This document shows positions 7,725 to 36,977 of a DNA stretch of 39,567 nucleotides, piece after piece. Numbering within the stretch: the stretch's first letter is position 1; each line of letters opens with the position of its first letter. The position numbers and the translations under genes were made by a program. The notes under the pieces were generated by a model. That model made no database searches, was not told where the DNA came from, and saw nothing but the letters and a program-made list of their open reading frames with translations. This stretch comes from a virus, in the IMG/VR virus record IMGVR_UViG_3300025141_008995, positions 1-39,567 of that record. One strand, given 5' to 3'.

Positions 7725-7725
7725 G

Positions 7726-11983: not shown

Positions 11984-11993
11984 TATTAAAGGC
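11984..11993 (-). promoter_or_regulatory. RCCTTTWATA promoter-like motif (copy 1)
   Basis: GCCTTTAATA on the minus strand, followed by TAGTGAAG. It lies just below a cluster of terminator hairpins (12030-12123) and just before a structured leader, the place where a promoter is needed. It is the only copy far from a start codon (122 bases). Confidence 0.55.
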
Positions 11994-12043
11994 ACAACGG
12001 AGGGGGTTTTGGCGATAAAAACCTTAAATATTATAGAAAATAC

Positions 12044-12123
12044 AGGGCGAAAATATACAATAATACTTTCGCCCTATAATCCTATACGAACCCAAACTTG
12101 GGGTCGGACTGCCAAAATGGCAG
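12044..12123 (-). terminator. Hairpin cluster after the 12137-12499 gene
   Basis: Three inverted repeats follow the stop codon on the minus strand: CTGCCATTTTGGCAG (12123-12109, fifth copy of that hairpin), CCCAAACTTGGG (12102-12091) and a 9-bp stem AGGGCGAAA/TTTCGCCCT (12075-12067 with 12052-12044) followed by a T-rich run. Together they should end transcription. Confidence 0.7.
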
Positions 12124-12136
12124 TTTCTTTTATATT

Positions 12137-12499
12137 TTATTCTTCAGCAGTTTGGCTCTCTTTAGGAGATTCTTCTTTATCCATATCAGACATCAGTTGC
12201 TCTAAAGCATTTTTCATATCTTCCATATCTTCAGCCCAAGAAGGTAATTCACAATCAAAAGCAATTTCTCTCGGAACTACTTGTATTACAAACTCATGGT
12301 TTTCTGGAATCTTAAAACCCCACTTGGATTGTCCTTTATTTTTATGAGTTTCTATGATTTTATCGCAGTCGGCTTGGCTTTTATAGATTGAGAGGATATT
12401 CATTTGAGCATCTCCTCCCATTCTATCTTTTTCTTGTTCAAGAAGCAAAAATAGTTTTGGATACTCTTGTTCTTTTTCTTTGCTTTTGATTTTATTCAT
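12137..12499 (-). CDS. Hypothetical protein (120 aa)
   Basis: Soluble, acidic C-terminus (MSDMDKEESPKESQTAEE). The middle resembles a small alpha/beta protein (ILSIYKSQADCDKIIETH, FVIQVVPREI), typical of short single-domain phage proteins. The ATG is preceded directly by AAAAGTCAA, the reverse of the TTTGACTTTT repeat, instead of a Shine-Dalgarno. Function unknown. Confidence 0.65.
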   Translation of the reverse strand: MNKIKSKEKEQEYPKLFLLLEQEKDRMGGDAQMNILSIYKSQADCDKIIETHKNKGQSKWGFKIPENHEFVIQVVPREIAFDCELPSWAEDMEDMKNALEQLMSDMDKEESPKESQTAEE

Positions 12500-12773
12500 T
12501 TGACTTTTCTCGGTTACTAAACCTTTCTGAGCGTTGCCTAATCGTTTCGGTGTTATTCCTATTGTAAGGTTTCATACCTTCAATTCGTCTTTCCAAACCT
12601 TCTTGGCGTAAGTTACAATCACTACAATCTACTTTTGCTACTAAGTCTTTGGTTATCCAACCGCATAAAAACATTAACGCCAGCGAAACCCAGCAAATCA
12701 TCTTTGGGTGTTTTTCTTCGTCAGGCTTAATAACTTTTTTAGTTACTTTCTTTGGTGCTTTCTTTGTTGCCAT
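12492..12773 (-). CDS. Single-pass membrane protein (93 aa)
   Basis: A Lys-rich N-terminus (MATKKAPKKVTKKVIK), one membrane helix at about residues 25-43 (MICWVSLALMFLCGWI) and then a charged helical tail with CSDC near the membrane. N-in topology is predicted from charge. The start follows AAAAAAGTCAA directly. It could belong to lysis or envelope functions, but nothing decides this. Confidence 0.65.
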   Translation of the reverse strand: MATKKAPKKVTKKVIKPDEEKHPKMICWVSLALMFLCGWITKDLVAKVDCSDCNLRQEGLERRIEGMKPYNRNNTETIRQRSERFSNREKSNE

Positions 12774-12782
12774 TTGACTTTT

Positions 12783-13007
12783 TTACGCTGTGGCTTCTTC
12801 TGGTTTAGAAGTAGTTTCTTCTACAGGAGGTGCGTCATCGCCTAAAACTTCTTCAAGTTCGGCAATCTTTTTTAGTGTTTCCTGTTCGTGGGCGAGAGCC
12901 TGCTCAAGATTTGTTTCTGCTTTTTCAACATACTCCGCTACACCTTTAAGGTTATTTCGGTATTGCGAAAGAGCAAACTGTAAATGTTCTATTGCTTTTT
13001 TGTTCAT
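12783..13007 (-). CDS. Coiled-coil hypothetical protein (74 aa)
   Basis: Helical throughout with heptads over residues 5-55 (LQFALSQYRNNLKGVAEYVE) and an acidic, Pro-containing tail. No membrane segment. A TTTGACTTTTTT copy lies about 30 bases upstream on the other strand. It looks like a small structural or scaffold-type protein, but function is unknown. Confidence 0.65.
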   Translation of the reverse strand: MNKKAIEHLQFALSQYRNNLKGVAEYVEKAETNLEQALAHEQETLKKIAELEEVLGDDAPPVEETTSKPEEATA

Positions 13008-13046
13008 AATAATTTTTAGTTTTTTGAGAAGTCTTCTTTGACTTTT

Positions 13047-13232
13047 TTAAGGACGAGCGTTACGGGTAAAAAATATATCTGTAACTGTTCCAGCAGCGAT
13101 TGCCCAGATAAATAACAAGGACGGGAGGGCTGGAAATACAATGATTGACATCCACACAACACTAACAAAATTGAGTGCGGATATAAGTAACCTAAACAGA
13201 TGAAGTGAGGTTAAGTTTGACAGGCTTTTCAT
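13047..13232 (-). CDS. Small membrane protein (61 aa)
   Basis: ATG 13232 is chosen: a longer frame to 13298 would begin in the tandem AAAAAAGTCAAAGC array and only translate the repeats (KKVKAT). From the chosen start the protein has two hydrophobic stretches (LHLFRLLISALNFVSVVWM and IVFPALPSLLFIWAIAAGTV), probably two membrane helices. It has holin-like size and topology, but so do many phage membrane proteins. Confidence 0.6.
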   Translation of the reverse strand: MKSLSNLTSLHLFRLLISALNFVSVVWMSIIVFPALPSLLFIWAIAAGTVTDIFFTRNARP

Positions 13233-13245
13233 TGCTTTGACTTTT

Positions 13246-13584
13246 TTAAATGGGGTTGCTTTGACTTTTTTGAATAGGGTCGCTTTGACTTTTTTCACAA
13301 TCAGCTATTAGTTTAGTTAAGTACCAATGCGCTTTTTTAAGATCTTCTACCCCATCTTTGTATTTGTATCTTGATACGTATTTAATAATATTTCCTTCTA
13401 CGAAGTTCATGTCCCAGGACAAAATATAATCAGTAGTTTCTATGCCCTTGGTGTAGTGAGCGGGGTGATTAATATGGATTTCTTCATAACTGCCTACAGA
13501 TTCCGTAACAGAATTTTTATACTTCCTCTGCTCCGCTCGTAGACGATCCGCACTCTTTCTTTCTTCGGCTATTCTATCTAACAT
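13246..13584 (-). CDS. DUF3310-family phage protein
   Basis: The core INHPAHYTKGIETTDYI...FVEGNIIKYVSRYKYKDGVEDLKKAHWYL matches the DUF3310 signature (NHPxHY, GNxxKYxxR, LKKAxWYL) found in many phages, function unknown. The last 15 residues (KSQSDPIQKSQSNPI) are translated tandem TTTGACTTTTTT-type repeats and look like a late addition to the gene. The start lies four bases after an RCCTTTWATA motif with no Shine-Dalgarno. Confidence 0.8.
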   Translation of the reverse strand: MLDRIAEERKSADRLRAEQRKYKNSVTESVGSYEEIHINHPAHYTKGIETTDYILSWDMNFVEGNIIKYVSRYKYKDGVEDLKKAHWYLTKLIADCEKSQSDPIQKSQSNPI

Positions 13585-13588
13585 ACTG

Positions 13589-13598
13589 TATAAAAGGC
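13589..13598 (-). promoter_or_regulatory. RCCTTTWATA promoter-like motif (copy 2)
   Basis: GCCTTTTATA, then CAGT, then the ATG at 13584. It lies just below a strong terminator (13617-13654), so transcription has to restart here; this is the best local argument that the motif is a promoter. Confidence 0.65.
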
Positions 13599-13616
13599 AA
13601 GTAGTTAGTGTTTTTG

Positions 13617-13654
13617 TGAGAAAAGGGGGGAATACTTTTATAGCATTCCCCCCT
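13617..13654 (-). terminator. Strong intrinsic terminator after hsp20-like gene
   Basis: GGGGGGAAT (13625-13633) pairs perfectly with ATTCCCCCC (13645-13653) around an 11-base loop. On the minus strand it is followed by TTTTCTC. Confidence 0.9.
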
Positions 13655-13661
13655 ACTTCAA

Positions 13662-14090
13662 TTACATTAGTTTAACAGACTCAGCCTCTTTCTTAATAGG
13701 CAACTCAAGGAAGAGCATGCCGTTCTTAAATGAAGTCTTAGCCCCACGCGCATCGTAGCTGTCATCGATTCCAATAGTAAACTGGACTGGCTTCTTGCTA
13801 ATCCCGTTATGAATGGTCTCAAATCCTTCCCCCCAATCTTCTGACTCAGCTGAGACTGAGATTGAGGTTTCGTTTGCGGTAACTGAGATGTTATCCTTAC
13901 CATACCCTGCCATTGCGAAACGCAACCCCAGAGTATTTTTGTTATTAGAGATGACGCAATCGCAAGGCGGGTAATTTGGTAGTTTTACCGTACTTGAATT
14001 TGCAACCTCTTCAGCCACAAAGGGCTTTCTTAGAAATTCGCCTGCGACCTCGTCAAACAAGCGATCAAAATGTGTGTAATAATAGTTCAT
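13662..14090 (-). CDS. Small heat-shock protein (Hsp20 family)
   Basis: The alpha-crystallin domain spans about residues 45-140: LGLRFAMAGYGKDNISVTA, then ISVSAES, then the terminal strand NGMLFLELPIKKE. The C-terminal I-x-I/V motif is weak (VKLM). T4-like phages of aquatic bacteria often carry hsp20. It acts as an ATP-independent holdase, perhaps protecting virion assembly. It has its own leader with a strong Shine-Dalgarno (AAAGGAGG) and a terminator right after the stop, so it is a single-gene unit. Confidence 0.85.
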   Translation of the reverse strand: MNYYYTHFDRLFDEVAGEFLRKPFVAEEVANSSTVKLPNYPPCDCVISNNKNTLGLRFAMAGYGKDNISVTANETSISVSAESEDWGEGFETIHNGISKKPVQFTIGIDDSYDARGAKTSFKNGMLFLELPIKKEAESVKLM

Positions 14091-14155
14091 AATAATTTAC
14101 CTCCTTTCGGACGGTTATTGGATATCCCAAAATTGGCAATATCCGAATTATATAG
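14091..14155 (-). promoter_or_regulatory. Leader of hsp20-like gene with CTATATAA box and hairpin
   Basis: On the minus strand CTATATAATT (14155-14146) is a candidate promoter box. The leader then forms GGATAT (14144-14139) paired with ATATCC (14125-14120), with an inner CCAATTTTGG stem, before the AAAGGAGG ribosome site. A thermosensor role is conceivable because it precedes a heat-shock gene, but no clear pairing of the ribosome site is seen. Confidence 0.45.
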
Positions 14156-14163
14156 TTGTTTTA

Positions 14164-14373
14164 TTATTCGTCAGCTGTTTCAGTCTCGTCGTCTGAACCA
14201 GTAACAAACTCTGCAACGTCGTTTCCAGCCTCTTGGACTGTATCAACTGCAGTATTAATCGCCGAGCATGAGAATAGAAAAATCCCAGCAAGGGCACCCA
14301 AAACAAACATGAAAATTGATTTCCAGCTTGCCAGGATAAGATTGTTAATGTTATTTAGAATTTGTTTCCACAT
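14164..14373 (-). CDS. Small lipoprotein or membrane protein (69 aa)
   Basis: A hydrophobic segment at about residues 18-37 (SIFMFVLGALAGIFLFSCS) ends in LFSC, a lipobox-like site. The mature part is short and acidic (DETETADE). The ribosome site AAGGAGGT is strong, as for the hsp20-like gene. It lies five bases after the hldD stop. Function unknown. Confidence 0.6.
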   Translation of the reverse strand: MWKQILNNINNLILASWKSIFMFVLGALAGIFLFSCSAINTAVDTVQEAGNDVAEFVTGSDDETETADE

Positions 14374-14378
14374 AAGAT

Positions 14379-15398
14379 TTATACCTCCTTGGTATTATAG
14401 TTAGAGCCTTCAGCATCTTTTGTGAGAAAATTAATATATTTTTTAACTCCCTCACCAATGCTTAAAAACGGCTCTTTGTAGCCAGCACCCCGCAACTTCG
14501 TCACCGAGGCTTGCGTATCGTACTGGTATTGCTCTTGAATGTCTTCGGGCATCTCGATATATTTAACCCCGAAGTAATTTTCGTACCCCATATTGTGGAA
14601 TACGTGAGATGCGACACAGTTAAAAGATTCGGCTTGTCCTGTACCTACATTAAATAGTCCATTCACATCTTCATTTTCTAACAGCCAATAGATTACTTTG
14701 CAACAATCATCCACGTGAACAAAATCTCTGCGTTGTTCTCCATGGTCAAACTCGTCCTCGTAAGATTTAAATAGGTGTATGTGGGGGTTCTCTTCTTCCC
14801 CAAAGGTCAGGATCTGATCATGCATTTTCAACATAATACTTCTCATGTGTCCTTTATGCTCTTCATGAGGACCGTACACATTAAAGAACTTTAAACCTAC
14901 CAGTTGAGGAGGTTTGCCTCCCCCATTATCAATAGATTCAAATATTCTATGATCGACCATAGCCTTTGTTCTTGCATATGGGTTTAAAGGGTTAAGTTTA
15001 GCTAAATGCTCTAAAGCATCATCATCAAAATGTCCATGTTCTCCACCTCCATACGTAGCTGCAGAGGAAGCGTACATAAACCTAATTTGTAGCCTCTTAC
15101 AAGCCTCATAAAGATCCATGGTGAAATCTACATTGTTGGTAAGTAATTCGTCTGACGCTGGCGCTGTGGTGTCAGAAATGGCTCCTAGGTGAATTACTGC
15201 TGCAATTCTACCTTCCCACCTCTCTAAAAACTTAATAAGGTCATTAGGATGGATATCAGCTGGGAACCCACGAGAGTTGTCAACGTAATCACACGTGTAC
15301 ACTGGGCTTCCATGCAATCCTGCATTCGCAGCTTGGTCATCTATAAGGCTTATAAGGTTTTTCCCTATAAAGCCACTGCTTCCTGTTACTATTATCAT
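14379..15398 (-). CDS. hldD: ADP-glyceromanno-heptose 6-epimerase
   Basis: Catalyses the last step of ADP-heptose synthesis, ADP-D-glycero- to ADP-L-glycero-D-manno-heptose. Short-chain dehydrogenase fold: nucleotide loop GSSGFIG (residues 6-12), YASSAATYGG, the active-site region NPYARTKAM, then FFNVYGPHEEHKGHM, FNVGTGQAESFN and LRGAGYKEPF, all hallmarks of HldD (the E. coli enzyme has YASSAATYGG, FNVYGPREGHKGSM, FNLGTGRAESF). 339 aa compared with about 310 in bacteria. It starts six bases after an RCCTTTWATA motif. The kinase and nucleotidyltransferase steps are encoded at 38278-39415. Confidence 0.9.
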   Translation of the reverse strand: MIIVTGSSGFIGKNLISLIDDQAANAGLHGSPVYTCDYVDNSRGFPADIHPNDLIKFLERWEGRIAAVIHLGAISDTTAPASDELLTNNVDFTMDLYEACKRLQIRFMYASSAATYGGGEHGHFDDDALEHLAKLNPLNPYARTKAMVDHRIFESIDNGGGKPPQLVGLKFFNVYGPHEEHKGHMRSIMLKMHDQILTFGEEENPHIHLFKSYEDEFDHGEQRRDFVHVDDCCKVIYWLLENEDVNGLFNVGTGQAESFNCVASHVFHNMGYENYFGVKYIEMPEDIQEQYQYDTQASVTKLRGAGYKEPFLSIGEGVKKYINFLTKDAEGSNYNTKEV

Positions 15399-15404
15399 AT
15401 ACGC

Positions 15405-15414
15405 TATTAAAGGT
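15405..15414 (-). promoter_or_regulatory. RCCTTTWATA promoter-like motif (copy 3)
   Basis: ACCTTTAATA followed by GCGTAT and the ATG of hldD at 15398. The stretch ACCTTTAATAGCGTA is identical to the one before the Clp-like gene (22076). The motif overlaps the last codons of the upstream gene. Confidence 0.6.
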
Positions 15415-15766
15415 TACTAATGCACGCTTTTGTAACATTTGTAGTATGATATCCTTCAACTCCACCTATTTCAACCAAAACATAATAACCGCCTGCCTTT
15501 GCGGTCCTTTTTAAGGCTGAATGGTACCTATCGGTAGCTTTTTTCATAAGGTTGTAATACTTCGCTGATCCTTTTTGGATCCCTTCATTTTGTATTTTAA
15601 TATACTCTGGTATTGATTTGTAAACAATTTTGGAGTCAACGACACCAATAGTATGAATGCTTTCATTATATCCTACGGAAGTACCATGCCGTACTTTATC
15701 GACAGCTATAGTTCCAACTAGAAATGAGCAAAGCAAAATGGAAGTAATTAGTAAGTTTTGTAACAT
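15407..15766 (-). CDS. Putative periplasmic Skp/OmpH-like protein (119 aa)
   Basis: ATG 15766 sits one base after the upstream stop (TAACATG), a spacing used repeatedly here. The N-terminus (LLITSILLCSFLVGTIAVD) is a signal peptide or anchor. The mature part (IGVVDSKIVYKSIPEYIKIQ, then a charged helix with KYYNLMKKATDRYHSALKRT) resembles the start of Skp/OmpH chaperones, which begin with a VVDxxxV strand and a coiled-coil arm, though the helix is short. It follows the virion-type paralogue trio. Confidence 0.45.
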   Translation of the reverse strand: MLQNLLITSILLCSFLVGTIAVDKVRHGTSVGYNESIHTIGVVDSKIVYKSIPEYIKIQNEGIQKGSAKYYNLMKKATDRYHSALKRTAKAGGYYVLVEIGGVEGYHTTNVTKACISNL

Positions 15767-15767
15767 G

Positions 15768-16538
15768 TTAAGTATTTTCGACACGGTAATATACTGTGGA
15801 AATTAGGTACACTTGAGTAGCACCTTCTATTGCAGTAAGGTTAAAGGCGGTATTTTCAGCTAAGGAAACACCATAAGGAAAACTAATAGAATCGGATGTC
15901 GCTAATTTTCCAATGTGCTGTCCTCCAAAGAGAAAGATGGTTCCGTCCCACCCTCCAGCGTGGAAATAATAAGCAGCCATAGATGCAGTACCAGAACCAC
16001 GTGTAGATGCCTGAATTCCATATATCACAAACCTTTTACCTGCTCCAGGAGCTGCCATCCATTCCGTAGTCGCTTGAGAGCCCAGGCTACCTCCCGCACT
16101 GAAATTAAGACCGCTGGCAGCTAAATACGAATCTTCAGAAGGTCTTATATTTACGTCAAGCCCTCCTGTAGGGGCTATCACATTCCTTTTTAATGTTAAT
16201 ACATTACCTACATTAGCTACAGAGGACTCAACTGCTGTTTCAATGTCTTGTGTGTCTGTTTTAATAGTGTCCAAAACAGCATCAATTCCCGTTAACAGCA
16301 CCTCATTTGCAGCTGTGTCTACTTGTATTGCCTCTACTGCGGTTTCAATTGCTTCCGTGTCTACTTTAATAGTATCTAAAACAGCATCAATCTCAGTGTT
16401 TTTAGTGAGAATGTTATTTAACGACGTGCCAGACACATTAACAGTGCCAGAGATATCTAAGCTTTCTGCAATATCAGTAACTACAGACACTGCGGTAGAG
16501 GAGGCGCCTGTGTAGCCTACGTAACCTCCGTTCTCCAT
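15768..16538 (-). CDS. Virion-type protein, paralogue 3 with coiled-coil repeats
   Basis: The C-terminal 120 residues (APGAGKRFVIYGIQAST, then a beta-rich end IYLISTVYYRVE-like) match the two preceding genes. The N-terminal half carries a degenerate repeat of about 40 residues: IDAVLDTIKVDTEAIETAVE and IDAVLDTIKTDTQDIETAVE with I/V heptads, a trimeric coiled coil as in phage fibres. It is likely a fibre or decoration protein with an oligomerisation stalk. It starts at the upstream stop (TAATG). Confidence 0.65.
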   Translation of the reverse strand: MENGGYVGYTGASSTAVSVVTDIAESLDISGTVNVSGTSLNNILTKNTEIDAVLDTIKVDTEAIETAVEAIQVDTAANEVLLTGIDAVLDTIKTDTQDIETAVESSVANVGNVLTLKRNVIAPTGGLDVNIRPSEDSYLAASGLNFSAGGSLGSQATTEWMAAPGAGKRFVIYGIQASTRGSGTASMAAYYFHAGGWDGTIFLFGGQHIGKLATSDSISFPYGVSLAENTAFNLTAIEGATQVYLISTVYYRVENT

Positions 16539-16948: not shown

Positions 16949-16952
16949 TACA

Positions 16953-17360: not shown

Positions 17361-17366
17361 ATTACT

Positions 17367-18101: not shown

Positions 18102-19044
18102 CTTTTAAAAATCCTTCTAAGGTTTGATATACTTTTTCCCCTAGGAATTCTTCTGTTTTCTTATTGTTAAGTCTATAAACTCTGTCATGTCCTAATCTAT
18201 CTTCGACGTGGACAGTTTTTAACTCCATCCCTAGTTGTTTTGCAATGTACTTGACGATTTCTATATTTTTATAATGAAATCCTGATCCGATATTGTATTC
18301 TTCATTTTCTGCAGACGAAAACATTAATTCCAAAATAGTTTGGCAATTATCATCCACGTGCATCCACTCACGAGACTGAAGACCATCACCGTAAATAGGA
18401 ATTTCCAAATCTCCTTTAATGGCTTTAAACACTTTTGGAATGAATTTTTCGGGGTTTTGGTTTGGTCCGAAATTATTGCAGGTTCTCGTGATGAGGTAGG
18501 GCACGTCGAATGTCCTTGCAGCTGCTTGAACCAAGAGCTCTGCAGAAGCTTTCGTTGCTGAATAATACGAAGACGGGCGAAGCTTAAAGGATTCATCAGA
18601 GGATTGTCGTCCTTGTAGGTCGTACATATCCCCATAGACTTCATCCGTAGATATTTGGATAAATTTCTTGAGTTTTTTGGCATGTTTAAAGTACTCTAAT
18701 AGGTTAAGAACGCCTTCTACATTAGTCTTAACGAAAGGGCGTCCGTTGGTAATGGAATTGTCTACATGAGTCTCCGCAGCAAAATTAACAACGTACTTAG
18801 CTTTTAAAAGTGCATCCTGCTCAAGGTCTGGTAGTTTGTTAAAGTCGATACAAATATCCTCTTTCATAAAACGATATCGCTTTATGTCTTGACGCATTCT
18901 TTCGGAGAGTCGTGTATGGTCAGCGGCGTAGGTTTCTTTATCGATGTTGATAATCTTTAACTTAGTATTTTCATACACAGCGTGTATAAATCTAGACCCA
19001 ATAAAACCTAAACCCCCAGTAATTACAATCGTATCATTTTCCAC
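18061..19044 (-). CDS. rmlB: dTDP-glucose 4,6-dehydratase
   Basis: Converts dTDP-glucose to dTDP-4-keto-6-deoxyglucose. Nucleotide loop GGLGFIGSRF, FAAETHVDNSI, ISTDEVYGDM (catalytic Thr-Asp-Glu), SYYSATKASAELL (Y-x3-K) and RTCNNFGPNQNPEKFIP are diagnostic. 327 aa is normal for the family. The start overlaps the rmlA stop, giving an rmlA-rmlB-rmlD cluster transcribed together. Confidence 0.92.
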   Translation of the reverse strand: MENDTIVITGGLGFIGSRFIHAVYENTKLKIINIDKETYAADHTRLSERMRQDIKRYRFMKEDICIDFNKLPDLEQDALLKAKYVVNFAAETHVDNSITNGRPFVKTNVEGVLNLLEYFKHAKKLKKFIQISTDEVYGDMYDLQGRQSSDESFKLRPSSYYSATKASAELLVQAAARTFDVPYLITRTCNNFGPNQNPEKFIPKVFKAIKGDLEIPIYGDGLQSREWMHVDDNCQTILELMFSSAENEEYNIGSGFHYKNIEIVKYIAKQLGMELKTVHVEDRLGHDRVYRLNNKKTEEFLGEKVYQTLEGFLKDEISRTKDFSNRG

Positions 19045-19778
19045 TACGCAAACTCCTTAATCGATTCTTTCCATAGTGTATGTGAAGCTTTTGCTAACGA
19101 ATCAAAAGTACCGCAATCAATCCAAGTTCCTTGTACTCTATGAACTCCTAACTGCTGGTCTTTTAGGTACATATTGTTAATATCAGTAATTTCTAGTTCT
19201 CCTCTAGCCGAGGCGGTAAGTTTTGAACACTTCTCGAAGATAGTATTATCATACATGTAAAGACCTATTACTGCATCAGAGGATGGGGGGTTGTTAGGTT
19301 TTTCTATAATGGTGATTGGCAACCCGTTTTCCGAATATTCCACAACTCCAAATCTTTCAGGGTCGGGGACTTCTTTAACGAAAATGGTTGCTCCTTTAGA
19401 AACAGCCTCAAACTCCCGCACGGCAGGCGCGATATCTTCAAAGATTAGATTATCCCCAAGGATAACTAGGCAATTATCATCACCTACAAATGTTTCCGCT
19501 TTTGCTAAAGCATCGGCAATCCCGCCTTCTCCTTCTTGGTAGGCGTAATGTAATTTATTCAACCCAAAGGCTTCACCGTTTTTCAGCACTCGAATAAAAT
19601 CACCCGCGTGCGGACCTCCAGTAACAACCATAACATCTTCAATTCCAGCGTCAACCACTGTCTGAATAGGATGATACACCATAGGCTTATCATAAACAGG
19701 CAATAAATGCTTGTTTGTAGCTGCCGTTAACGGCAGTAACCTCGTCCCTAAACCCCCAGCTAATATTACGGCTTTCAT
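19044..19778 (-). CDS. rmlA: Glucose-1-phosphate thymidylyltransferase (short form)
   Basis: Makes dTDP-glucose. The nucleotide-binding signature GGLGTRLLPLT (residues 8-18) is followed by NKHLLPVYDKPMVYHP, VILGDNLI and the late motif WIDCGTFDSL. The 244-aa form lacks the C-terminal allosteric segment of the roughly 290-aa enzyme, as in many phage and archaeal forms. A terminator hairpin ends in a T run that touches the ATG, so transcription from above may be cut here. Confidence 0.88.
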   Translation of the reverse strand: MKAVILAGGLGTRLLPLTAATNKHLLPVYDKPMVYHPIQTVVDAGIEDVMVVTGGPHAGDFIRVLKNGEAFGLNKLHYAYQEGEGGIADALAKAETFVGDDNCLVILGDNLIFEDIAPAVREFEAVSKGATIFVKEVPDPERFGVVEYSENGLPITIIEKPNNPPSSDAVIGLYMYDNTIFEKCSKLTASARGELEITDINNMYLKDQQLGVHRVQGTWIDCGTFDSLAKASHTLWKESIKEFA

Positions 19779-19818
19779 AAAAAAAAATGGCTCCCTAACA
19801 ATTATAGTCAGAAGCCAT
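19779..19818 (-). terminator. Terminator-like hairpin abutting the rmlA start codon
   Basis: ATGGCT (19787-19792) pairs with AGCCAT (19813-19818), and on the minus strand the stem is followed by about eight T bases that run into the ATG at 19778. A TATAAT lies in the loop, but no -35 box at the right distance is found. Confidence 0.6.
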
Positions 19819-19835
19819 GATTTTATAACAAATTT

Positions 19836-20512: not shown

Positions 20513-20532
20513 AATTTGTGAGTCTGTCTAAA

Positions 20533-20540: not shown

Positions 20541-20570
20541 GAGTTTCGTTTTGTTTGATTAATAAAATAA

Positions 20571-20834: not shown

Positions 20835-22076
20835 TTAGATAGTAGATGAGACACCGCCAACACTAAGGTTTTTCCCTTGAAATTTTGGTTTATAGATTTT
20901 ACTCTTATCTCCCGAAAGTATTTTATCAGCAATAAGTAATGTAATATTCTTTTTAATAAACCTTTTAATATTACGGGCTCCATAATCCTCGGAATATCCA
21001 TTATCAACCACATACTCTACAAGTTTCTTTGTTATTCGTACGGGGATCTTTTTCAAATTTAATCTTGTAATTTGCCGAACATTATCCTTTGTTAAAGCAT
21101 TGAAGTGCACTACTTGGTCAATTCTGTTAATGAACTCAGGAGAAAACTCGGTTTTGAATGCCTCTTCGACCGTACCTCGAATGTCCTTATAGGCAAGACT
21201 ACTGCTTCCAAACCCTAAAGATTTTTTGCCTAAGTTACCTTTAATACCAACGTTACTTGTAAAGATGATAATAGAATTAGAGAAATCCAACGTATCCCCA
21301 TGGCTATCTGTTATATTTCCTTCATCTAACAACCCCAATAGAAGATCGTGCAGTTTAGTATTAGCCTTTTCAATCTCGTCAAACAAAATAACCCATTGGG
21401 AGCTTTCTTCCGCTTTATCAGACAATAACCCCTTTTCATTAAAACCGATATACCCAGGAGGGCTGCCGATTAACTTCGCATACTCATGAGGGTTGGAATA
21501 CTCAGCACAGTTTATCTTTAGCAGTTTTTTAGGTTCTCCAAAATACTTCTCTGCTACTTGGCGAGCTACTTCTGTTTTTCCTACCCCGGTTGGACCAATA
21601 AAAAACAACGACATAAAACTTTCGAAACCTGAGTTCATGAGTTTAAAAGTATCCACCATAGCAGTTATAGCTTCATCTTGCCCGATAACATTTTTTTTAA
21701 TCTCTACAGCGACTTGGTTAATTTTCTTCAAGTCGTACGAAACTAATTTTTTAGCTTCTTCGTCCTCGGCTTCTGCTATATTGTAATGCTTGCATGCCGT
21801 TTCAGCAGTAAGCTGTGGGTAAACTTCAGTAACAGCCTCGTAAGCAGCCTCAGCGAATATGGAAGCCTCTCCGTATTTCTTCGACAGAGCGGTGTAGTTT
21901 GCAATTAAGGATTTCGAAATAAACTCAGCAAAATCGGACATTTTAAATCCGGGAGTTGCTATTTTCTCGTCTAAATTCTCAAATAGGTTTTCTACAAAAG
22001 TAAAATCTACTTTTCTAACCCTAATAAAACAATCAAGCACCTGACTGTATACAATATAATTTTTAGACTTAGCCAT
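20835..22076 (-). CDS. Clp/Hsp100-like AAA+ ATPase (413 aa)
   Basis: The first 120 residues are an unknown helical domain. The rest is a class-I Clp second-ring ATPase: IGQDEAI, Walker A GPTGVGKT (161-168), pore loop GSPPGYIGF (204-212), Walker B VILFDEIEKA (229-238), sensor 1 IIFTSNVG, Arg finger FSPEFINRIDQVV and sensor 2 YGARNIKR. Only one ATPase ring is present and there is no N-domain or ClpP-binding IGL loop visible. It may unfold a host or phage protein. It starts six bases after an RCCTTTWATA motif. Confidence 0.85.
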   Translation of the reverse strand: MAKSKNYIVYSQVLDCFIRVRKVDFTFVENLFENLDEKIATPGFKMSDFAEFISKSLIANYTALSKKYGEASIFAEAAYEAVTEVYPQLTAETACKHYNIAEAEDEEAKKLVSYDLKKINQVAVEIKKNVIGQDEAITAMVDTFKLMNSGFESFMSLFFIGPTGVGKTEVARQVAEKYFGEPKKLLKINCAEYSNPHEYAKLIGSPPGYIGFNEKGLLSDKAEESSQWVILFDEIEKANTKLHDLLLGLLDEGNITDSHGDTLDFSNSIIIFTSNVGIKGNLGKKSLGFGSSSLAYKDIRGTVEEAFKTEFSPEFINRIDQVVHFNALTKDNVRQITRLNLKKIPVRITKKLVEYVVDNGYSEDYGARNIKRFIKKNITLLIADKILSGDKSKIYKPKFQGKNLSVGGVSSTI

Positions 22077-22082: not shown

Positions 22083-22092
22083 TATTAAAGGT
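22083..22092 (-). promoter_or_regulatory. RCCTTTWATA promoter-like motif (copy 4)
   Basis: ACCTTTAATA, then GCGTAA and the ATG of the Clp-like gene. It sits in a 22-base gap, outside any coding sequence, and shares 15 bases with copy 3. Confidence 0.65.
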
Positions 22093-24074: not shown

Positions 24075-24294
24075 AGTCTTTCTCTAGTTGGTCGTTTAGG
24101 AGTTGTGTTTTCGGATTTTTTTTATCCTTTAAGAGAGCCTTAATTCCGTTTAACTCTGCATCCATACGCATCAAAGACATTTCGACTGCCTTATTACTTG
24201 CGTGGAAAACGCATTTGTTTTTAACCCATGCAAACACAGGACACCATACGGTACCTAGTAAAAAGGATACCCCTGCAATATATAAATCATTCAT
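24049..24294 (-). CDS. Single-pass membrane protein (81 aa)
   Basis: An N-terminal membrane helix (about residues 5-24, IAGVSFLLGTVWCPVFAWV), then a helical charged domain with an acidic tail (DFDDDSPSS). Ribosome site GGAG lies upstream of ATG 24294. Its stop lies inside the start of the cupin gene. It resembles holins or small envelope proteins, without proof. Confidence 0.55.
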   Translation of the reverse strand: MNDLYIAGVSFLLGTVWCPVFAWVKNKCVFHASNKAVEMSLMRMDAELNGIKALLKDKKNPKTQLLNDQLEKDFDDDSPSS

Positions 24295-25252
24295 TTGTAA
24301 ATCTCCCCATTAAAGTTTTATCTATCTCTGCTTTTCTTTGTTTAGTCTTGCCATCGTCGAGAGAATACCACCCTTTGGTCGGTGATGTTACCGTCCCCTC
24401 TTTATAGTATAAATCGCAGAGACCGTGCCCTTTCGTCAGACCTTTATCGTATAAAAGTTCGAAAGTGCATTCTTGAAACGGCTTAGAAATCTTGTTTTTA
24501 ACCGCTTTGATTGTTCCTGTAATACCAGACGGGTTTTTCATCTTATCGTATAAAACATCATTTTTGCCAGACGCAGCTTCTAGGGAAGTCCCACAGTAAT
24601 ACAGTAGTGCTTTACCCCCGCCAGCTCTCGTTCTAGGGTCTCCAAACATAACGCCTACTTTACTTCGTACTTGGTTAATAATAATCAACCCTGCCTTGTA
24701 CTTCCTAAGCATCGGATTAATTCTCCTTAAGCACTGACCTGCAACCTTTGCACGTAAAGCTCCCCCCATCTCGGAGTTTTTGCCAAATTCGTCTAACATC
24801 TCTTTTCGTGTTGGAGAAACTCCAATAGAATCATATCCAATCAGGATAGGAGTGTCTGGATCTTGTTCCCGAATAGCTTTAATAGTATTCTCGATAGTCT
24901 CAAAACAATCTTCCAAAGCTTCAGGCTGAAAGTACAAAAGCTTATTCGCATCAACGCCAAGAGTTTTTGCAAAAGATGGAGAATACGCATGTTCATTGTC
25001 TATCATAACAGTGTAAAATCCTTTCTTCTGAGCTCCGATAAAAGCGTGCGTTAAAAACACCGTCTTAGCAGTACTACTTTCTCCGTAAATTTCAGTGATA
25101 GACCCAATCGGATATCCCTTCTCAGCATCCCCAGAGATAATTTTATTTAAAGCGTATGATCCAGAATCAACGTACCCAAAAACCTGATCTTGGTCGGATA
25201 AAATAGAAGCCCCCTCGAGCTTCTTACAAATGTCATCTAATAGACTTCCCAT
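24287..25252 (-). CDS. RecA/UvsX-family recombinase (321 aa)
   Basis: Forms the strand-exchange filament. Walker A is GESSTAKT (residues 57-64) in place of the bacterial GPESSGKT, with Ala at the usual Gly. Then MIDNEHAY, LIGYDSIGVS (Walker B Asp about 141), GGALRAKVAG, and the L2-type LIIINQVRSKVGVMFG, where NQ is the conserved sensor. RxxxGG (RTRAGGGKAL) is also present. The C-terminal RecA domain is absent, as in UvsX/RecA of phages. It starts four bases after an RCCTTTWATA motif. Confidence 0.9.
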   Translation of the reverse strand: MGSLLDDICKKLEGASILSDQDQVFGYVDSGSYALNKIISGDAEKGYPIGSITEIYGESSTAKTVFLTHAFIGAQKKGFYTVMIDNEHAYSPSFAKTLGVDANKLLYFQPEALEDCFETIENTIKAIREQDPDTPILIGYDSIGVSPTRKEMLDEFGKNSEMGGALRAKVAGQCLRRINPMLRKYKAGLIIINQVRSKVGVMFGDPRTRAGGGKALLYYCGTSLEAASGKNDVLYDKMKNPSGITGTIKAVKNKISKPFQECTFELLYDKGLTKGHGLCDLYYKEGTVTSPTKGWYSLDDGKTKQRKAEIDKTLMGRFTNE

Positions 25253-25256: not shown

Positions 25257-25266
25257 TATAAAAGGC
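25257..25266 (-). promoter_or_regulatory. RCCTTTWATA promoter-like motif (copy 5)
   Basis: GCCTTTTATA starts right after the stop of the upstream epimerase gene and is followed by TGTT and the ATG of the recombinase. Confidence 0.65.
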
Positions 25267-32235: not shown

Positions 32236-32237
32236 AT

Positions 32238-32957
32238 CTAAACGTACGTTGCCCCTTCCCTTTTAAAGACTGCAGCAGGGTGGGTTTTATCCATTTCATT
32301 AACTAAATTTTTCTTCATCCCCTCCGCAATAGCATGAGGCAATCCTTGATTGCCTATGAACATATCTGCGGCTCCAATTACATTAGCAAGTTTCACCAAC
32401 GTAGGAGTTTCAATATACTCTATCTTTTGCTCAAAAGTATACTCCCAAACTTTATGGTCAAAAGGAAGACCTACAAAAACTGCAGACTTAGCCAACTGCT
32501 CCGCTATGGATTCCCAATAGAAATGATTTCCTTGGTATCGTACACTTCGAGACACAACGATATTTTTACCTTCTGGAAGTGTAATTTTTTCAGGGGCTTC
32601 AAGCCATTTAAAAGTTGCTAATTCATGAGGTATTTGAAACGCCTCCAAATGAGAATAGGTAAGGTTGTTAAAATTAACATGCCCCCTAAAAGAATCTAGA
32701 TTGTACGTTATCTCTTCACCATTCCACTCTCGAACTTCGTGGATATAATACTGACTCTCAAGAAGAGGTTTTAATAGTTGGATGGTTTGAGAGTTTAATT
32801 TTGTTTTCCCTCGAGACGGTTTCGCACCTACGAGTTCACCTTCCCCTCCTTTAGGGTCTAAATATAAAATTCCCGTACCAAAATGTTTTATTACGGGTAG
32901 GGAAAATATAATATCCCCCATATCTCCAGAATGCTTATACGTCTTCCCAGAAGCCAT
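32238..32957 (-). CDS. GT9-like glycosyltransferase (heptosyltransferase-type)
   Basis: GDMGDIIFSLPVIKHFG at the N-terminus is the GDxxxxxPxxxxL segment of family 9 (LPS heptosyltransferases). SRSVRYQG and FVGLPFDHKVWE stand at the donor-domain start, and ADMFIGNQGLPHAIAEGM is the donor-binding motif (compare DTGPxHLAAA). It has 239 aa, while WaaC/F have about 320-350, so it is short. It may use the ADP-heptose the phage helps to make. Confidence 0.65.
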   Translation of the reverse strand: MASGKTYKHSGDMGDIIFSLPVIKHFGTGILYLDPKGGEGELVGAKPSRGKTKLNSQTIQLLKPLLESQYYIHEVREWNGEEITYNLDSFRGHVNFNNLTYSHLEAFQIPHELATFKWLEAPEKITLPEGKNIVVSRSVRYQGNHFYWESIAEQLAKSAVFVGLPFDHKVWEYTFEQKIEYIETPTLVKLANVIGAADMFIGNQGLPHAIAEGMKKNLVNEMDKTHPAAVFKREGATYV

Positions 32958-34128
32958 GTTGTACTAAAAGTTGCTTATACAGGTTTAGGCGGTGGACAAC
33001 TTGTTTGTTTATATCATACAACTCATCAGTAACCGACTTTAAGTTTAAACCCATTTCACGACAGCCTTTCGGGTCTTTCGCTAATTTCGATAGTCTTGCG
33101 ACCCACTCGCTTCTTGGATTTGTTTTATCTATTAAATACCCCGTTTCTCCATTTATAATCAATTCATCATATGCGCCACAGTCAGTCGCGACTAAAGGCA
33201 GACCATACCTTCCACATTCTGCAACTTTAATATCAGACTTAGAATCATTAAAATTATTCCATTCAAGGGGGGCGATTCCGACATCCATTTGGGTAAACAT
33301 ATACCCGTATTGAAAGGACGGCATAGCGTTAAAAACTCCGAAATTTCGATGTTTAATACCTGCGGTTAAAAGCTTGGTATAGTTGTCCCAAACATCCTGC
33401 TGCCAGTCTCCCTTTTCGCCCGGTTGTAAAGGTGGTCTCCCGAAAAACTTCCACTCTACATTTTCGGGACCTGCTTTAATGTTAACCCCCATTGCCATAG
33501 TTGGAACTTGCTTCAAATCTTGTTCGTGGTGAATTCCACCAACCCAACCAATTCTCATAGGTCCTTTCTTTCTGGGGGTCCAAGGAGCATTCCAACAAGG
33601 CAAGTCATAATCAATAGCGTTTTTCATAACCGCTAAAGTTCGGTTGCAGTAAGGTGCAATTCTCTCAGCAAACTTTCTTTGGGTTACTGTAACCAAGTCC
33701 GCATTAGAGTATACAAATTGAGTCAGTTCATCTAACTTATTTTCTTTGTATAGATTCCACAGTCTGTGACCTTCGTATAAATCTGTAAGTAAATCATCCG
33801 TATCGTAATGAAAAAACTTGCCCTTTTCTTTTAGTACTTGGACTAGTTTAAAGAGGTAGGGTGCACCGTAATTTGGAATATTTTGAGTGAATACAATATC
33901 AGCCCACTCAATATCAGACAAATCGGGCTCCTCGTCATACTTTTTTTCTTTTTCGTTATAGCAAAGGGGGTTCTGATTAAATCTTATCTCTACTTCCCCA
34001 GAAAACTTTTCAGCAAGTTTCCGCATAGGCATTAAGATGCGATAATAAGCACAACCACCCTCATTGGCAGCAACCGCAAGAATTTTCATCTTGCGGTTAA
34101 CTTTCTTCGTTTCTCCTTCGTCAGGCAC
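32935..34128 (-). CDS. Family 4-like glycosyltransferase (397 aa)
   Basis: GT-B fold with a GT1/GT4-type end: VGIAPLEWNNFNDSKSDIKV, then ECGRYGLPLVATDCGAYDEL (EX7E motif) and ETGYLID. The start is GTG 34128, which overlaps the SSB stop (TAGTG); the ATG at 34089 (KILAVAANEGGCAYY) is the alternative start and gives a 384-aa protein. It overlaps the GT9 gene by 23 bases. A retaining sugar transferase of unknown donor. Confidence 0.85.
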   Translation of the reverse strand: MPDEGETKKVNRKMKILAVAANEGGCAYYRILMPMRKLAEKFSGEVEIRFNQNPLCYNEKEKKYDEEPDLSDIEWADIVFTQNIPNYGAPYLFKLVQVLKEKGKFFHYDTDDLLTDLYEGHRLWNLYKENKLDELTQFVYSNADLVTVTQRKFAERIAPYCNRTLAVMKNAIDYDLPCWNAPWTPRKKGPMRIGWVGGIHHEQDLKQVPTMAMGVNIKAGPENVEWKFFGRPPLQPGEKGDWQQDVWDNYTKLLTAGIKHRNFGVFNAMPSFQYGYMFTQMDVGIAPLEWNNFNDSKSDIKVAECGRYGLPLVATDCGAYDELIINGETGYLIDKTNPRSEWVARLSKLAKDPKGCREMGLNLKSVTDELYDINKQVVHRLNLYKQLLVQHGFWEDV

Positions 34129-34862
34129 TATAGACCTTTTAAATGGGACAAGTAATCCTCGTCACCGTCTTCTTTGGAGTTCGAACTTTCAACTACTTCT
34201 TTAGGAGGTTCGGGAGTATCGTCTCCGGTAATCTCCATAACAAGCTTTTTAAGGTCCTCGTAACTAGCAACCTTAATCAAGCCATGAACATCATGAAGAG
34301 TGTCCATATACTCTGCGGTTTCCTTATCCGAACCTAGAGGTGATTGCTTAGGCTTCGGCGCCGACTTGGAATAGTCTGGCCACTGCCCTGATTTATCCTT
34401 AACGATTTTAAAATCATGACCTACGTTCACATCAGTGATGTCGCCATAATCCTCGTCAAAGAAACAATCTAAGATTTTACTGAAAAGTTTGATACCTACA
34501 GAAAGAATCTTTACCTCTCCTGTTGCACGTTCAACTGCGTTCAAGTAAAATCTCTTGCGAGCTTTAATTTGACGAGCCAAATCCATATTTGCTTCATCCT
34601 TAGTGTTCCAAAGTTTAAAGCTGAGATCACACATTGGGCATTCTCCACCTTTAACTTTAGGGCAGTGATAGTTTCGGTCGTTAATACGATGGATTCCGGT
34701 CTCGGAGTAAAACTCCTGAGTTTCATCCTTCCAAGGAAGGACACGAACAATAGTTTCGCCTTCCTCCATCATTAAAAACTTCTTTAGGAAGTCTGCATTA
34801 TCCTTGCTAGCAACTTTGTTAATTTGATTGTATTTATTTTTTAGATTTTCTATGTTTACCAT
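34128..34862 (-). CDS. T4 gp32-like single-stranded DNA-binding protein
   Basis: Coats single-stranded DNA in replication and recombination. Zinc ligands H66, C67, C75 and C78 (YHCPKVKGGECPMC) resemble the H-C-C-C site of T4 gp32. The OB-fold core follows (RFYLNAVERATGEVKILSVG). The C-terminal tail is acidic (SSNSKEDGDEDYLSHLKGL), as needed to contact the recombinase and helicase. The leader between this gene and the upstream stop is almost pure A, see the entry at 34863. Confidence 0.88.
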   Translation of the reverse strand: MVNIENLKNKYNQINKVASKDNADFLKKFLMMEEGETIVRVLPWKDETQEFYSETGIHRINDRNYHCPKVKGGECPMCDLSFKLWNTKDEANMDLARQIKARKRFYLNAVERATGEVKILSVGIKLFSKILDCFFDEDYGDITDVNVGHDFKIVKDKSGQWPDYSKSAPKPKQSPLGSDKETAEYMDTLHDVHGLIKVASYEDLKKLVMEITGDDTPEPPKEVVESSNSKEDGDEDYLSHLKGL

Positions 34863-34882
34863 GGTATTTTTTTTGTTTTTTT
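34863..34882 (-). promoter_or_regulatory. Poly-A leader before the gp32-like gene
   Basis: Between the upstream TAA and the ATG the mRNA reads A-run (part of nine As), C, eight As, UACC, with no Shine-Dalgarno. T4 gp32 represses its own translation by binding an unstructured A/U-rich region; this leader is well suited to the same control. This is inference. Confidence 0.45.
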
Positions 34883-35323
34883 TTATTCTGAAATTAATTT
34901 CACTTCTGCCCGCTTATTGGCGGACAGTTGGACCAGCATATCTTTCTGGTGGTCCATAGACGAAAGGATATTTTTAGCGAGGTTGTATTTCTGCTGTGCT
35001 TCGATAACCTCTGCTCTCATATCAATGAGCTCAGGCACAACCAATACATAGGTGTTTAAATGTGATTCAGTCACCTTCTGCCCTTTGCCAGTTAACTCTA
35101 CCCTACGAAGCTCTTTATGTTTCGCTTCGCTCATATCCAACTTTGTGGAGAGCATGTCTTGAACCTTTTTAGCATAGGCTAATACGGCTCCAAAAAATGC
35201 GTACAATGCAGAATGCTCTAGCATCGTTTTGTTTACTTCCGTCTCATCAATCTCCACATACTTTTTAACTAGGGGGAGGTAGTGCTCTGAAAGCTTTTCG
35301 TAAGTTTCTATAATATCGCTCAT
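34883..35323 (-). CDS. Helical protein, possible UvsY-like mediator (146 aa)
   Basis: Almost all helix: a middle block SALYAFFGAVLAYAKKVQDM, LRRVELTGKGQKVTES and a C-terminal coiled-coil block NLAKNILSSMDHQKDMLVQL. Size, charge and location beside a gp32-like SSB are what one expects of the T4 UvsY mediator, which loads UvsX on gp32-covered DNA. There is no clear primary-sequence match. An alternative is a helicase-loader or scaffold protein. Confidence 0.4.
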   Translation of the reverse strand: MSDIIETYEKLSEHYLPLVKKYVEIDETEVNKTMLEHSALYAFFGAVLAYAKKVQDMLSTKLDMSEAKHKELRRVELTGKGQKVTESHLNTYVLVVPELIDMRAEVIEAQQKYNLAKNILSSMDHQKDMLVQLSANKRAEVKLISE

Positions 35324-35328
35324 CGTAG

Positions 35329-35338
35329 TATAAAAGGT
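35329..35338 (-). promoter_or_regulatory. RCCTTTWATA promoter-like motif (copy 6)
   Basis: ACCTTTTATA begins right at the stop of the HExxH gene, then CTACG and the ATG at 35323. Confidence 0.65.
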
Positions 35339-35682
35339 TATTCTTTACTGAAAATATAGGCAAATAATTCTTTATTTAACCCATGCAAAGTTTGCAGCAT
35401 ATTTGAGGTGACAGTGGTTAGATATTCGTTCCCTATTTGGGGCATTTCATCATCATCACCTAAACCAAACAACTCCCAACCTACATGACAGATTTCATGA
35501 AGTAAAGTTCCTTTGTAATCCGGAATAGATTGGGTAGGGTCTATTGTAATAGTAGCTAGTGGAAACTCAACGCATCCATACAAGCTCTCCTTTGCCAGTG
35601 ATTTTTGAACAATATCAAACTGTTTAAATCCGAGATCTAATGTCATCGGATGTTCGTGCTTTGGGTATTTTTTTGTAGCCAT
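35338..35682 (-). CDS. HExxH protein (114 aa), putative zinc peptidase-like
   Basis: KGTLLHEICHVGWELFGLGD holds a consensus HExxH metal site (HEICH, about residues 65-69) with a Glu in EMPQIGNEYLTTV that could be the third ligand. The size is that of small phage zincin-like proteins related to SprT/ImmA. It sits between helicase and the possible mediator in the replication cluster. Peptidase activity is not shown. Confidence 0.65.
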   Translation of the reverse strand: MATKKYPKHEHPMTLDLGFKQFDIVQKSLAKESLYGCVEFPLATITIDPTQSIPDYKGTLLHEICHVGWELFGLGDDDEMPQIGNEYLTTVTSNMLQTLHGLNKELFAYIFSKE

Positions 35683-36962
35683 TATGTTCCTTCCTTAATT
35701 ACTAACCTATTATAGTCCATTGTGGTAGGAAATATAAACCTAGCTTTACCATTTCTAGATTTGATTACGTACACTCTAGCTTTTGAGGAATCAAATTCTT
35801 CCTCATTTTGGTTAATTGAAAATACTAAATCACAAACTCTAGTTTTTCCGTAAGAATCAGCTAGTTCCGTGTCTGTAATTATAGAGACCTTCTTCCCGTC
35901 CCTATTAGTTTGTGTAGCTGTCCACACAAGGCAGTTTAACTCGCTAGCTAAACCTCGAAGTTCTTGAGCGAGTCTTTCCTGTCCTTGATATTCTGCTAAG
36001 TTGGAATCTGTATTTAACAACTCCAAATAATCTATAATTATAACAGACGGGACAAAATCATGATAGTTTTTTAGTTGTGCAAGGTATGCTCGAATTGTAT
36101 TTACGTTTGCTCTTTTTGTAGGGAACTCTTTAATTCTCAAGTTTCCCAGATTTTCTACGCTAGAGGATATAGTGTCCAATCTCTCTTTTAACGTATCCCT
36201 CTTGTGCTTCAATTCGATTTGTTTAATTCTCGTAAAGATACTATCCAATCTTTGAGCAACTCTATCTTCAGACATTTCCAAAGACAAATACAAAACATTA
36301 TGACCGTCAATACATGAGCGTACTGCTTGATTGGCAAGATACAGAGACTTGCCAACTCCAGGAGGGGCTACGACCATAGCTAATTCCTTAGCTGCCATTC
36401 CACCTTCCAATGAAGCGTTCAAAGTATCAAATACCGTTAGGAACTTTGGAGTTAAATCCTCTTTAGATAAACGGTCCCACCTATCATCTACAGTTGTGAA
36501 GTAATCTGTGCCTAAATCTATCTCTCTGCTTACAGACATCGCATCCCGAATCAAATCATGGATATTGTCGTATTGTTTTTTATTGATAAGATCAACAGAT
36601 TCAATAATAGCTTCCTTCAAAGCCTGTTGCTTAGCGAACTCCTCTACTGAATCCAACAAGTACTCTGCGCTAGAGATAGACTTTTCATCTAAAGTGTTAA
36701 TTAAATTTATCTCGTCTTTGTAATCCGAAAATAACTCACTAGACAACTTTAAACTTTTAACCTCCTCTAACACGTGGTCATCTGCAGGAAGGGTTTTATA
36801 CTTTGTATAATAGTCCCTAACTACGGAATAAATTTTCTGGTGAGAAGGGTATTCAAAATACTCTGGCTTAAGCATCGGCATTGCTTGAGACAAAAATGTC
36901 TCGTCCGATTTAGCCAAGTATAAAATACCTCTTTGTATATTTTCTGAGAATTCGTATGCCAT
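35682..36962 (-). CDS. DnaB-family replicative helicase (426 aa)
   Basis: The N-terminal helical domain (about residues 1-110) with EYFEYPSHQKIYSVV is typical of DnaB/gp41. The RecA-fold motor has Walker A APPGVGKS (199-206), LYLSLEMSEDRVAQRL (H1a-type), VIIIDYLELL with Walker B Asp 311, and WTATQTNRDG near the end (H3). ATG 36962 is chosen in place of GTG 36965. It unwinds DNA at the fork and lies in the replication cluster after dUTPase. Confidence 0.9.
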   Translation of the reverse strand: MAYEFSENIQRGILYLAKSDETFLSQAMPMLKPEYFEYPSHQKIYSVVRDYYTKYKTLPADDHVLEEVKSLKLSSELFSDYKDEINLINTLDEKSISSAEYLLDSVEEFAKQQALKEAIIESVDLINKKQYDNIHDLIRDAMSVSREIDLGTDYFTTVDDRWDRLSKEDLTPKFLTVFDTLNASLEGGMAAKELAMVVAPPGVGKSLYLANQAVRSCIDGHNVLYLSLEMSEDRVAQRLDSIFTRIKQIELKHKRDTLKERLDTISSSVENLGNLRIKEFPTKRANVNTIRAYLAQLKNYHDFVPSVIIIDYLELLNTDSNLAEYQGQERLAQELRGLASELNCLVWTATQTNRDGKKVSIITDTELADSYGKTRVCDLVFSINQNEEEFDSSKARVYVIKSRNGKARFIFPTTMDYNRLVIKEGT

Positions 36963-36967
36963 CACCC

Positions 36968-36977
36968 TATAAAAGGC
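36968..36977 (-). promoter_or_regulatory. RCCTTTWATA promoter-like motif (copy 7)
   Basis: GCCTTTTATA followed by GGGTG and the ATG at 36962. It lies in the 24-base gap after the dUTPase stop. Confidence 0.65.

Follow-up and report, generated by a model that had tools for sequence, protein, structure and literature searches.

What is the function of the ten-base motif RCCTTTWATA, which recurs at gene starts in the viral record IMGVR_UViG_3300025141_008995 (IMG/VR)? The stretch of DNA analyzed, referred to here as the window, covers positions 1 to 39,567 of this record. An earlier note, made from the letters alone, had proposed that the motif marks a phage promoter class. This proposal is now strongly supported by comparative sequence analysis, namely by the start-site signature, conservation among orthologs, the 5' ends of tRNA genes and the -10-only design, although the exact ten-mer is only the window phage's version of a broader element, CTWTWATA-N3-Y/R (class P; the slash precedes the predicted first transcribed base). 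With a probability of about 0.82, class P would be a lineage-wide -10-only promoter class in this group of T4-like marine phages, read by a phage sigma factor and mostly leaderless. The predicted leaderless design and a parallel, host-type leaderless class (class H), which are the main features of the system, are absent from the earlier note.

A motif search of the window recovers all seven minus-strand copies that had been listed (Table 1). Six of them lie 4-6 bases before an ATG, as claimed, with gaps of 4, 6, 6, 4, 5 and 5 bases, and the seventh, at 11984, indeed opens a structured leader. The claim that the motif always runs in the coding direction holds for these seven, but an eighth copy lies on the plus strand (21237-21246), antisense within the Clp-like gene, and has neither an ATG nor a pyrimidine-purine (YR) dinucleotide at the right distance. 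When the window is shuffled with its dinucleotides preserved, 0.9 copies are expected on average over the two strands together, or ~0.45 per strand rather than the ~0.15 estimated before, and no shuffle in sets of 100 and 300 comes to the eight observed. For the motif with an ATG 4-6 bases further on, the count is six, versus 0.03 expected. Two copies lie directly below terminator-like hairpins, as had been noted, and the box at 15405..15414 overlaps the stop codon of the gene upstream. Regarding the genes behind these boxes, PHROGs and Pfam back the labels UvsX, DnaB-like/gp41 helicase, Clp-like AAA ATPase and nucleotide-sugar epimerase. The product of 13246-13584, earlier labeled DUF3310, matches phage 'nucleotide kinase' families, that of 34883-35323 matches only families of unknown function, and the suggested UvsY found no support.

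The dinucleotide pyrimidine-purine is the usual site of transcription initiation in bacteria. All seven minus-strand copies run on as NNNY/R, and the box joined to NNNYR is found at 7 sites in the window versus 0.21 in shuffles. Because this arrangement fits the usual initiation dinucleotide, the transcription start site (TSS) is predicted at the fifth base past the box, which places the ATG at +1 to +3 in six of the seven copies. Most class P transcripts would thus be leaderless or nearly so. For the helicase, the GTG start listed at 36965 would fall upstream of the predicted TSS G36963. A general rule by which leadered class P transcripts start with a hairpin at +1 was rejected, since this was found in 17 of 60 cases, which does not differ from small shifts.

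To place the motif in its lineage, approximately 50 contigs encoding UvsX relatives were compared, with spacing counts over 662 kb. The exact RCCTTTWATA is not enriched among them, which is a point against its reading as a promoter class, and orthologs were therefore compared, revealing the counterpart CTATAATA. The absence from relatives that the earlier note would have taken as evidence against its proposal is thus true of the literal ten-mer only, as the counterpart is conserved. In most related uvsX genes, CTATAATA lies exactly four bases 5' of the ATG, and it does so at other genes too, in dozens of related contigs. Over the 662 kb, an ATG follows CTATAATA at spacing 4 in 55 cases, compared with ~3 at other spacings. 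In a substitution scan, C0, T1, T3 and A5 are essentially invariant, and positions 2 and 4 are A or T. The lineage consensus is CTWTWATA, mostly CTATAATA, and the exact ten-mer is a variant confined, as far as seen, to the window phage. In de novo enrichment of 8- and 9-mers 5' of genes, class P and class H are at or near the top.

The presence of the box was scored with one start-codon rule for every gene, so that the contrast between class P genes and control genes is fair. Orthologs of uvsX carry CTWTWAYA in 27 of 32 cases (30 of 32 allowing one mismatch), and a class P box is found in 10 of 13 orthologs of the nucleotidyltransferase 19044-19778 and in 4 of 24 orthologs of 34883-35323. No class P box was found in the orthologs of the control genes SSB (0/24), 22099 (0/22) and 32935 (0/22), and in the negative controls, cyanophage Syn9 and Rhodothermus phage RM378, class P is absent at spacing 4. 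Other class P genes in the relatives include gp32, terminase, tRNAs and a gp55-like sigma factor. Among 97 distinct leaderless class P sites in relatives, the base before the ATG is a pyrimidine in 96, versus 48% at starts led by a Shine-Dalgarno sequence. Their match to a -35 element is 3.14, compared with 2.91 in shuffled sequence, and there is almost no information upstream of the box. In some clades, an inverted repeat (GCCATGCCTATAATAAGGCATGGC; CCTTCTATAATAGAAGG) surrounds the -10 box of uvsX (L016, L017, L019, L021, L032, L038; L006) and is possibly an operator there; as a general operator, GCCATGCCTATAATAAGGCATGGC was rejected, as it is found only at uvsX.

Class P boxes also precede genes that are not translated. 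In the relatives, tRNA-Ile genes begin 0 (L111), 2 (L133, L134, L138) and 8 nt (L142) past the predicted class P TSS. As a side observation, the 5' ends of such tRNA-Ile(UAU) transcripts may need little or no trimming by RNase P.

Table 1. Predicted promoters, terminators, leaders and candidate readers in the window and in related contigs (contig handle before the position). TSS, predicted transcription start site.
Feature	Position	Strand	Details
Class P box GCCTTTAATA	11984..11993	minus	TSS G11979 (TAGT/G); 117-nt leader, then gene 11572-11862
Class P box GCCTTTTATA	13589..13598	minus	TSS A13584 = A of ATG (CAGT/ATG); DUF3310-type gene 13246-13584
Class P box ACCTTTAATA	15405..15414	minus	TSS A15400 (GCGT/ATATG); 2-nt leader; epimerase 14379-15398
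Class P box ACCTTTAATA	22083..22092	minus	TSS A22078 (GCGT/AAATG); 2-nt leader; Clp-like AAA ATPase 20835-22076
Class P box GCCTTTTATA	25257..25266	minus	TSS A25252 = A of ATG (TGTT/ATG); uvsX 24287-25252
Class P box ACCTTTTATA	35329..35338	minus	TSS G35324 (CTAC/GATG); 1-nt leader; gene 34883-35323
Class P box GCCTTTTATA	36968..36977	minus	TSS G36963 (GGGT/GATG); 1-nt leader; DnaB/gp41-like helicase, ATG at 36962
Extra class P box CTATAATA	35708..35715	minus	TSS A35703; 21-nt leader with Shine-Dalgarno; gene 35338-35682
Extra class P-type box CTATTATA	2590..2597	plus	TSS 2602; 11-nt leader; gene 2613-2861
Intrinsic-terminator-like hairpin	13620..13659	minus	just upstream of 13589 box; -26 kcal/mol, z -5.4
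Terminator-like hairpin	12041..12078	minus	upstream of 11984 box; z -6.2 for stretch
Structured 5' leader of gene 11572-11862	11863..11979	minus	helix from predicted +1; -29 kcal/mol, z -4.4
Class H promoter TTGACA-N17-TATAAT	278..318	plus	TATAAT at 301, 6 nt, ATG at 313; leaderless early gene
Class H promoter	515..556	plus	TATAAT at 538, ATG after 7 nt
Class H promoter	1259	plus	
Class H promoter	1605	plus	
Class H promoter	1739..1779	plus	TATAAT at 1762, ATG after 6 nt; gene 1774-2133
Class H promoter TTGACT-N17-TATAAT	11451..11479	minus	heads gene run 11409 to 5481, including sigma-like gene
Sigma-like protein, 189 aa	5481..6050	minus	region-2-like domain and C-terminal helical/helix-turn-helix-like domain; candidate class P reader
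gp55-like sigma candidate	L076:7554-7943; L078:17977-18348	minus	equivalents in G002, G003, G009, G033, G034, G035
tRNA-Ile(UAU) genes	L111:1466; L133:6254; L134:3984; L138:6031		0-2 nt after predicted class P TSS

Class H has the form TTGACA-N17-TGGTATAAT-N6-ATG, which is the complete host consensus plus an extended -10 element, and is also predicted to be leaderless, with the ATG at +1. At the 54 distinct class H sites of the phage group, the match to the -35 element is 4.72 of 6, versus 2.91 in shuffled sequence. In the window, TTGAC-N17to19-TATAAT has six matches versus 0.12 expected, comprising five plus-strand promoters (301-1762) and one on the minus strand (11456). Compared with class H, the spacing of class P is one base shorter and the TGn element is lacking. 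In several relatives (L106, L110, L112, L114 and L117), the sigma-family gene itself starts directly at a class H promoter. A different arrangement was observed in G034 (L198), where the minus strand of 2329-7853 carries seven copies of GTGAC followed by TCGGTTATA, with an ATG ~10 nt on; this early promoter-like element suggests another host type for G034.

The earlier note had suggested that the sigma-like protein encoded at 5481-6050 reads the motif. Its family was found in 10 of the 12 contigs tested, and Pfam Sigma70_r2 matches six of seven family members (best 3e-4). The AlphaFold model of the protein has a predicted local distance difference test score (pLDDT) of 82. The Foldseek matches listed in the PDB for this deeper model are sigma factors or complexes containing them, with E-values from 0.017, and the top BFVD match is a phage extracytoplasmic function (ECF) sigma factor (8.6e-4). 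A sequence search of the PDB with the protein and its profile gave nothing significant. The protein is the leading candidate, with a modeled sigma-family fold; as the reader of class P, it would bind core RNA polymerase and direct promoter-specific initiation.

Several further results weigh against class P being a lineage-wide promoter class read by this protein. The box is present in only 5 of 18 helicase orthologs and 3 of 20 Clp-like ATPase orthologs, leaving 13 and 17 without it, and the combination shared by all six leaderless window copies, a C before the box and a T at position 2, recurs at 1 of 118 sites in relatives. The window protein matches Sigma70_r2 with an E-value of 0.017, below the Pfam cut-off, its fold matches in the PDB lie only around 0.02, and hhalign comparisons of its family with Syn9 gp55 and the RM378 sigma factor were not significant. 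In addition, its predicted C-terminal helix-turn-helix-like domain would normally imply contact with a -35 element, which class P does not have. Finally, a gp55-like sigma candidate, encoded under class P in relatives, is a competing reader.

Two readings would make the motif something other than a promoter. That it is a product of chance or of the composition of an AT-rich genome would agree with the number of single-mismatch copies in the window, which is at chance level, but the shuffle tests and the ortholog conservation have already refuted this explanation, and its remaining probability is negligible. It could also be a signal for translation initiation or mRNA processing, given that the box lies where a Shine-Dalgarno sequence would be expected and often at junctions inside co-directional gene runs. 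Such a signal is strongly disfavored because tRNA-Ile genes, too, have a class P box 0-2 nt ahead of them. Moreover, boxes are found before leadered genes with their own Shine-Dalgarno sequence (35708-35715) and directly below terminator-like hairpins, and in the window their distance is fixed to the YR dinucleotide and not to the ATG, which makes a translation or processing signal very improbable.

Less clear-cut is which factor reads class P. The search with the T4 late-sigma PHROG, which matched 6 of 12 contigs weakly (2.3e-5 at best) and the window fragment not at all, led to a second, shorter protein in the relatives, gp55-like, of 114-135 aa and conserved at 50-90% identity. This protein, with region 2 alone as in the T4-like late sigma factor, may read class P and regulate its own gene from it; the -10-only box resembles T4 late promoters, and the gp55-like gene opens at a leaderless class P box in several relatives (L076:7554-7943, minus strand; G020 and G035). 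On the other hand, a gene under class P fits a downstream target better, and in several relatives host-type promoters precede the genes of the 5481-6050 family, as expected of an upstream regulator. The gp55-like protein could instead act on a third, weaker box, CTATATAAW, found near structural genes. This candidate box was observed at 14155, 17374 and 20540 on the minus strand of the window, where its count is within chance, and at L088:958 and L207:14277; in relatives, it lies near some structural genes and below the terminator of the capsid gene. Sigma-70 strongly requires an A at position 2 of the -10 hexamer (the -11A contact). Position 2 of the -10-like hexamer is a T in all seven minus-strand copies of the window, which argues against class P being a host sigma-70 -10 element without a -35, perhaps with a phage activator and no need for a phage sigma factor. 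The invariant C before TATAAT, the lack of -35 and TGn elements and the spacing one base under that of class H point in the same direction. For a host factor speak the perfect TATAAT within CTATAATA, the clearly host-type class H in the same phages and the -10-adjacent leaderless promoters known in Deinococcus-Thermus (PMC12340547) and Actinobacteria (PMC3160421). Overall, the 5481-6050 protein is somewhat favored as the reader, at slightly better than even odds; the gp55-like protein is a possible but clearly less likely reader, and a host sigma factor, with or without a phage activator, is unlikely. The earlier suggestion thus stands as a sound sigma-family candidate that likely reads class P, although with a competitor.

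In the proposed mechanism, RNA polymerase carrying the phage sigma factor would melt the class P box and start at the purine five bases beyond. In most copies, this purine would be the A of the ATG or lie 1-2 bases ahead of it, resulting in leaderless or nearly leaderless mRNA, and the box would stand in for the Shine-Dalgarno sequence. With the intergenic gap or the stop codon filled by the box, the downstream gene should be translated from newly initiated transcripts of its own and not from read-through. Class P would probably represent the phage's own second wave of transcription, driven by the phage sigma factor. Host sigma-70 would initially read the TTGACA and TGGTATAAT promoters of class H, expressing early genes and the phage-sigma operon, after which the phage sigma would turn on uvsX, the replicative helicase, the Clp-like ATPase and nucleotide-sugar genes. 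Such a cascade is the most likely form of regulation, and it is made plausible by the class H promoter that heads the operon ending in the sigma-like gene. The simplest order would be the host sigma, followed by the 5481-6050 sigma and then the class P genes, including that of the gp55-like sigma. The start of transcription at the box, leaderless translation, the temporal order and the identity of the reader are all deduced from sequence patterns. More tentatively, a T4-superfamily lineage without detectable gp45 may use a three-step cascade of host sigma, two-domain phage sigma and gp55-like sigma, with early and middle transcripts that are systematically leaderless and some tRNAs that begin at the TSS. 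If so, the 5481-6050 family would represent a naturally occurring single-chain equivalent of the split gp55/gp33 pair, the apparent natural absence of which has been discussed as a puzzle of T4 (PMC2988020). The sigma family also raises the issue of what took over from T4-type late transcription, and how, in phages in which no clamp is found. In this phage group, promoters would have displaced the ribosome-binding sites of key replication genes, which implies hosts that translate leaderless mRNA well and is a usable clue to host identity. In annotation, the class P box gives accurate start codons.

The longer relatives encode homologs of gp17, gp18, gp20, gp21, gp23, gp41, gp46 and UvsX in a T4-like arrangement, and an A-family DNA polymerase is present in 10 of 12 contigs. 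The gp45 clamp (PF02916) has no match in 12 contigs, which are fragments, and the gp33 co-activator has none either, with the control genomes equally silent. The relatives belong to the T4 superfamily but have no close isolate: phage records match UvsX at less than 60% identity only. The only close named genome match is QCKN01000003.1 (L171/G033), a phage contig of the group of 130,604 bp, about whole-genome size, in the Prochlorococcus single-cell assembly AG-409-P03; psbA was not found in the contigs. A further repeated element, AAAAGTCAAA, has 15 copies in the window, all on the minus strand, versus 0.32 expected (nine in 1413-2921 and six in 12499-13293), and abuts the ATG directly in two cases. 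It is nearly absent from Syn9 and RM378, and AAAAGTCAA recurs often, with a strand bias, in related contigs such as L080, L086 and L198. For AAAAGTCAAA, a role at an origin, in priming by a primase or in RNA binding would be a guess.

Several known systems resemble class P in part. T4 late promoters consist of an 8-bp box, TATAAATA, at the -10 position without a conserved -35 element and are read by gp55 with gp33 and gp45 (PMC2988020). The earlier note had called the motif unlike T4 late boxes, which is correct for the sequence, as TATAAATA is not enriched at gene starts and CTWTWATA is found instead, but not for the architecture, as class P is likewise a single 8-bp box without a -35 element, in phages with T4 structural and recombination genes. 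Class P differs from the T4 system in its predicted leaderless starts, in the missing gp45 match and in its candidate sigma factor, which combines region 2 with a C-terminal helix-turn-helix-like domain, whereas gp55 has region 2 alone. In phage phiEco32, the sigma factor gp36 reads tAATGTAtA promoters, a single element without a -35, with the start 6-8 bp downstream (PMC8948821). A phage-encoded sigma factor, still a candidate in the class P phages, and a single-element promoter are thus common to both, but the box and the sigma family differ, and a leaderless design is not mentioned for phiEco32 in the parts of that source consulted.

In Deinococcus-Thermus and Actinobacteria, leaderless promoters with TANNNT boxes 6-7 bp before the open reading frame are widespread (PMC12340547, PMC3160421); this type is marked by a box at a fixed distance of 5-7 bp from the start codon and by the lack of a Shine-Dalgarno sequence. 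As predicted for class P from the fixed spacing and the Y/ATG rule, the box there replaces the Shine-Dalgarno sequence and the mRNA starts at the AUG. These are cellular genes, however, whereas class P always begins with a C, can take a T where TANNNT has its A and occurs alongside a distinct host-type class; the window class P copies have a T at the near-invariant A of TANNNT, and class H has the A. The Far-T4 phages are, like the class P group, uncultured members of the T4 superfamily; genes for T4 transcription regulation were not detected in them, and phoH is present in three of four clades (PMC4360716). Membership of the class P group in Far-T4 via phoH is not supported, as phoH is not convincingly present in 12 contigs (one match below the cut-off), and RM378 is without class P. 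For an uncultured T4-like group, given the transcription-regulation genes that the Far-T4 authors noted as missing (PMC4360716), class P provides a defined and testable transcription program. No precedent for a leaderless promoter class in T4-like phages was found in the open-licence literature, and what is new here is best called a -10-only phage promoter class that ties the predicted start of transcription directly to the start codon.

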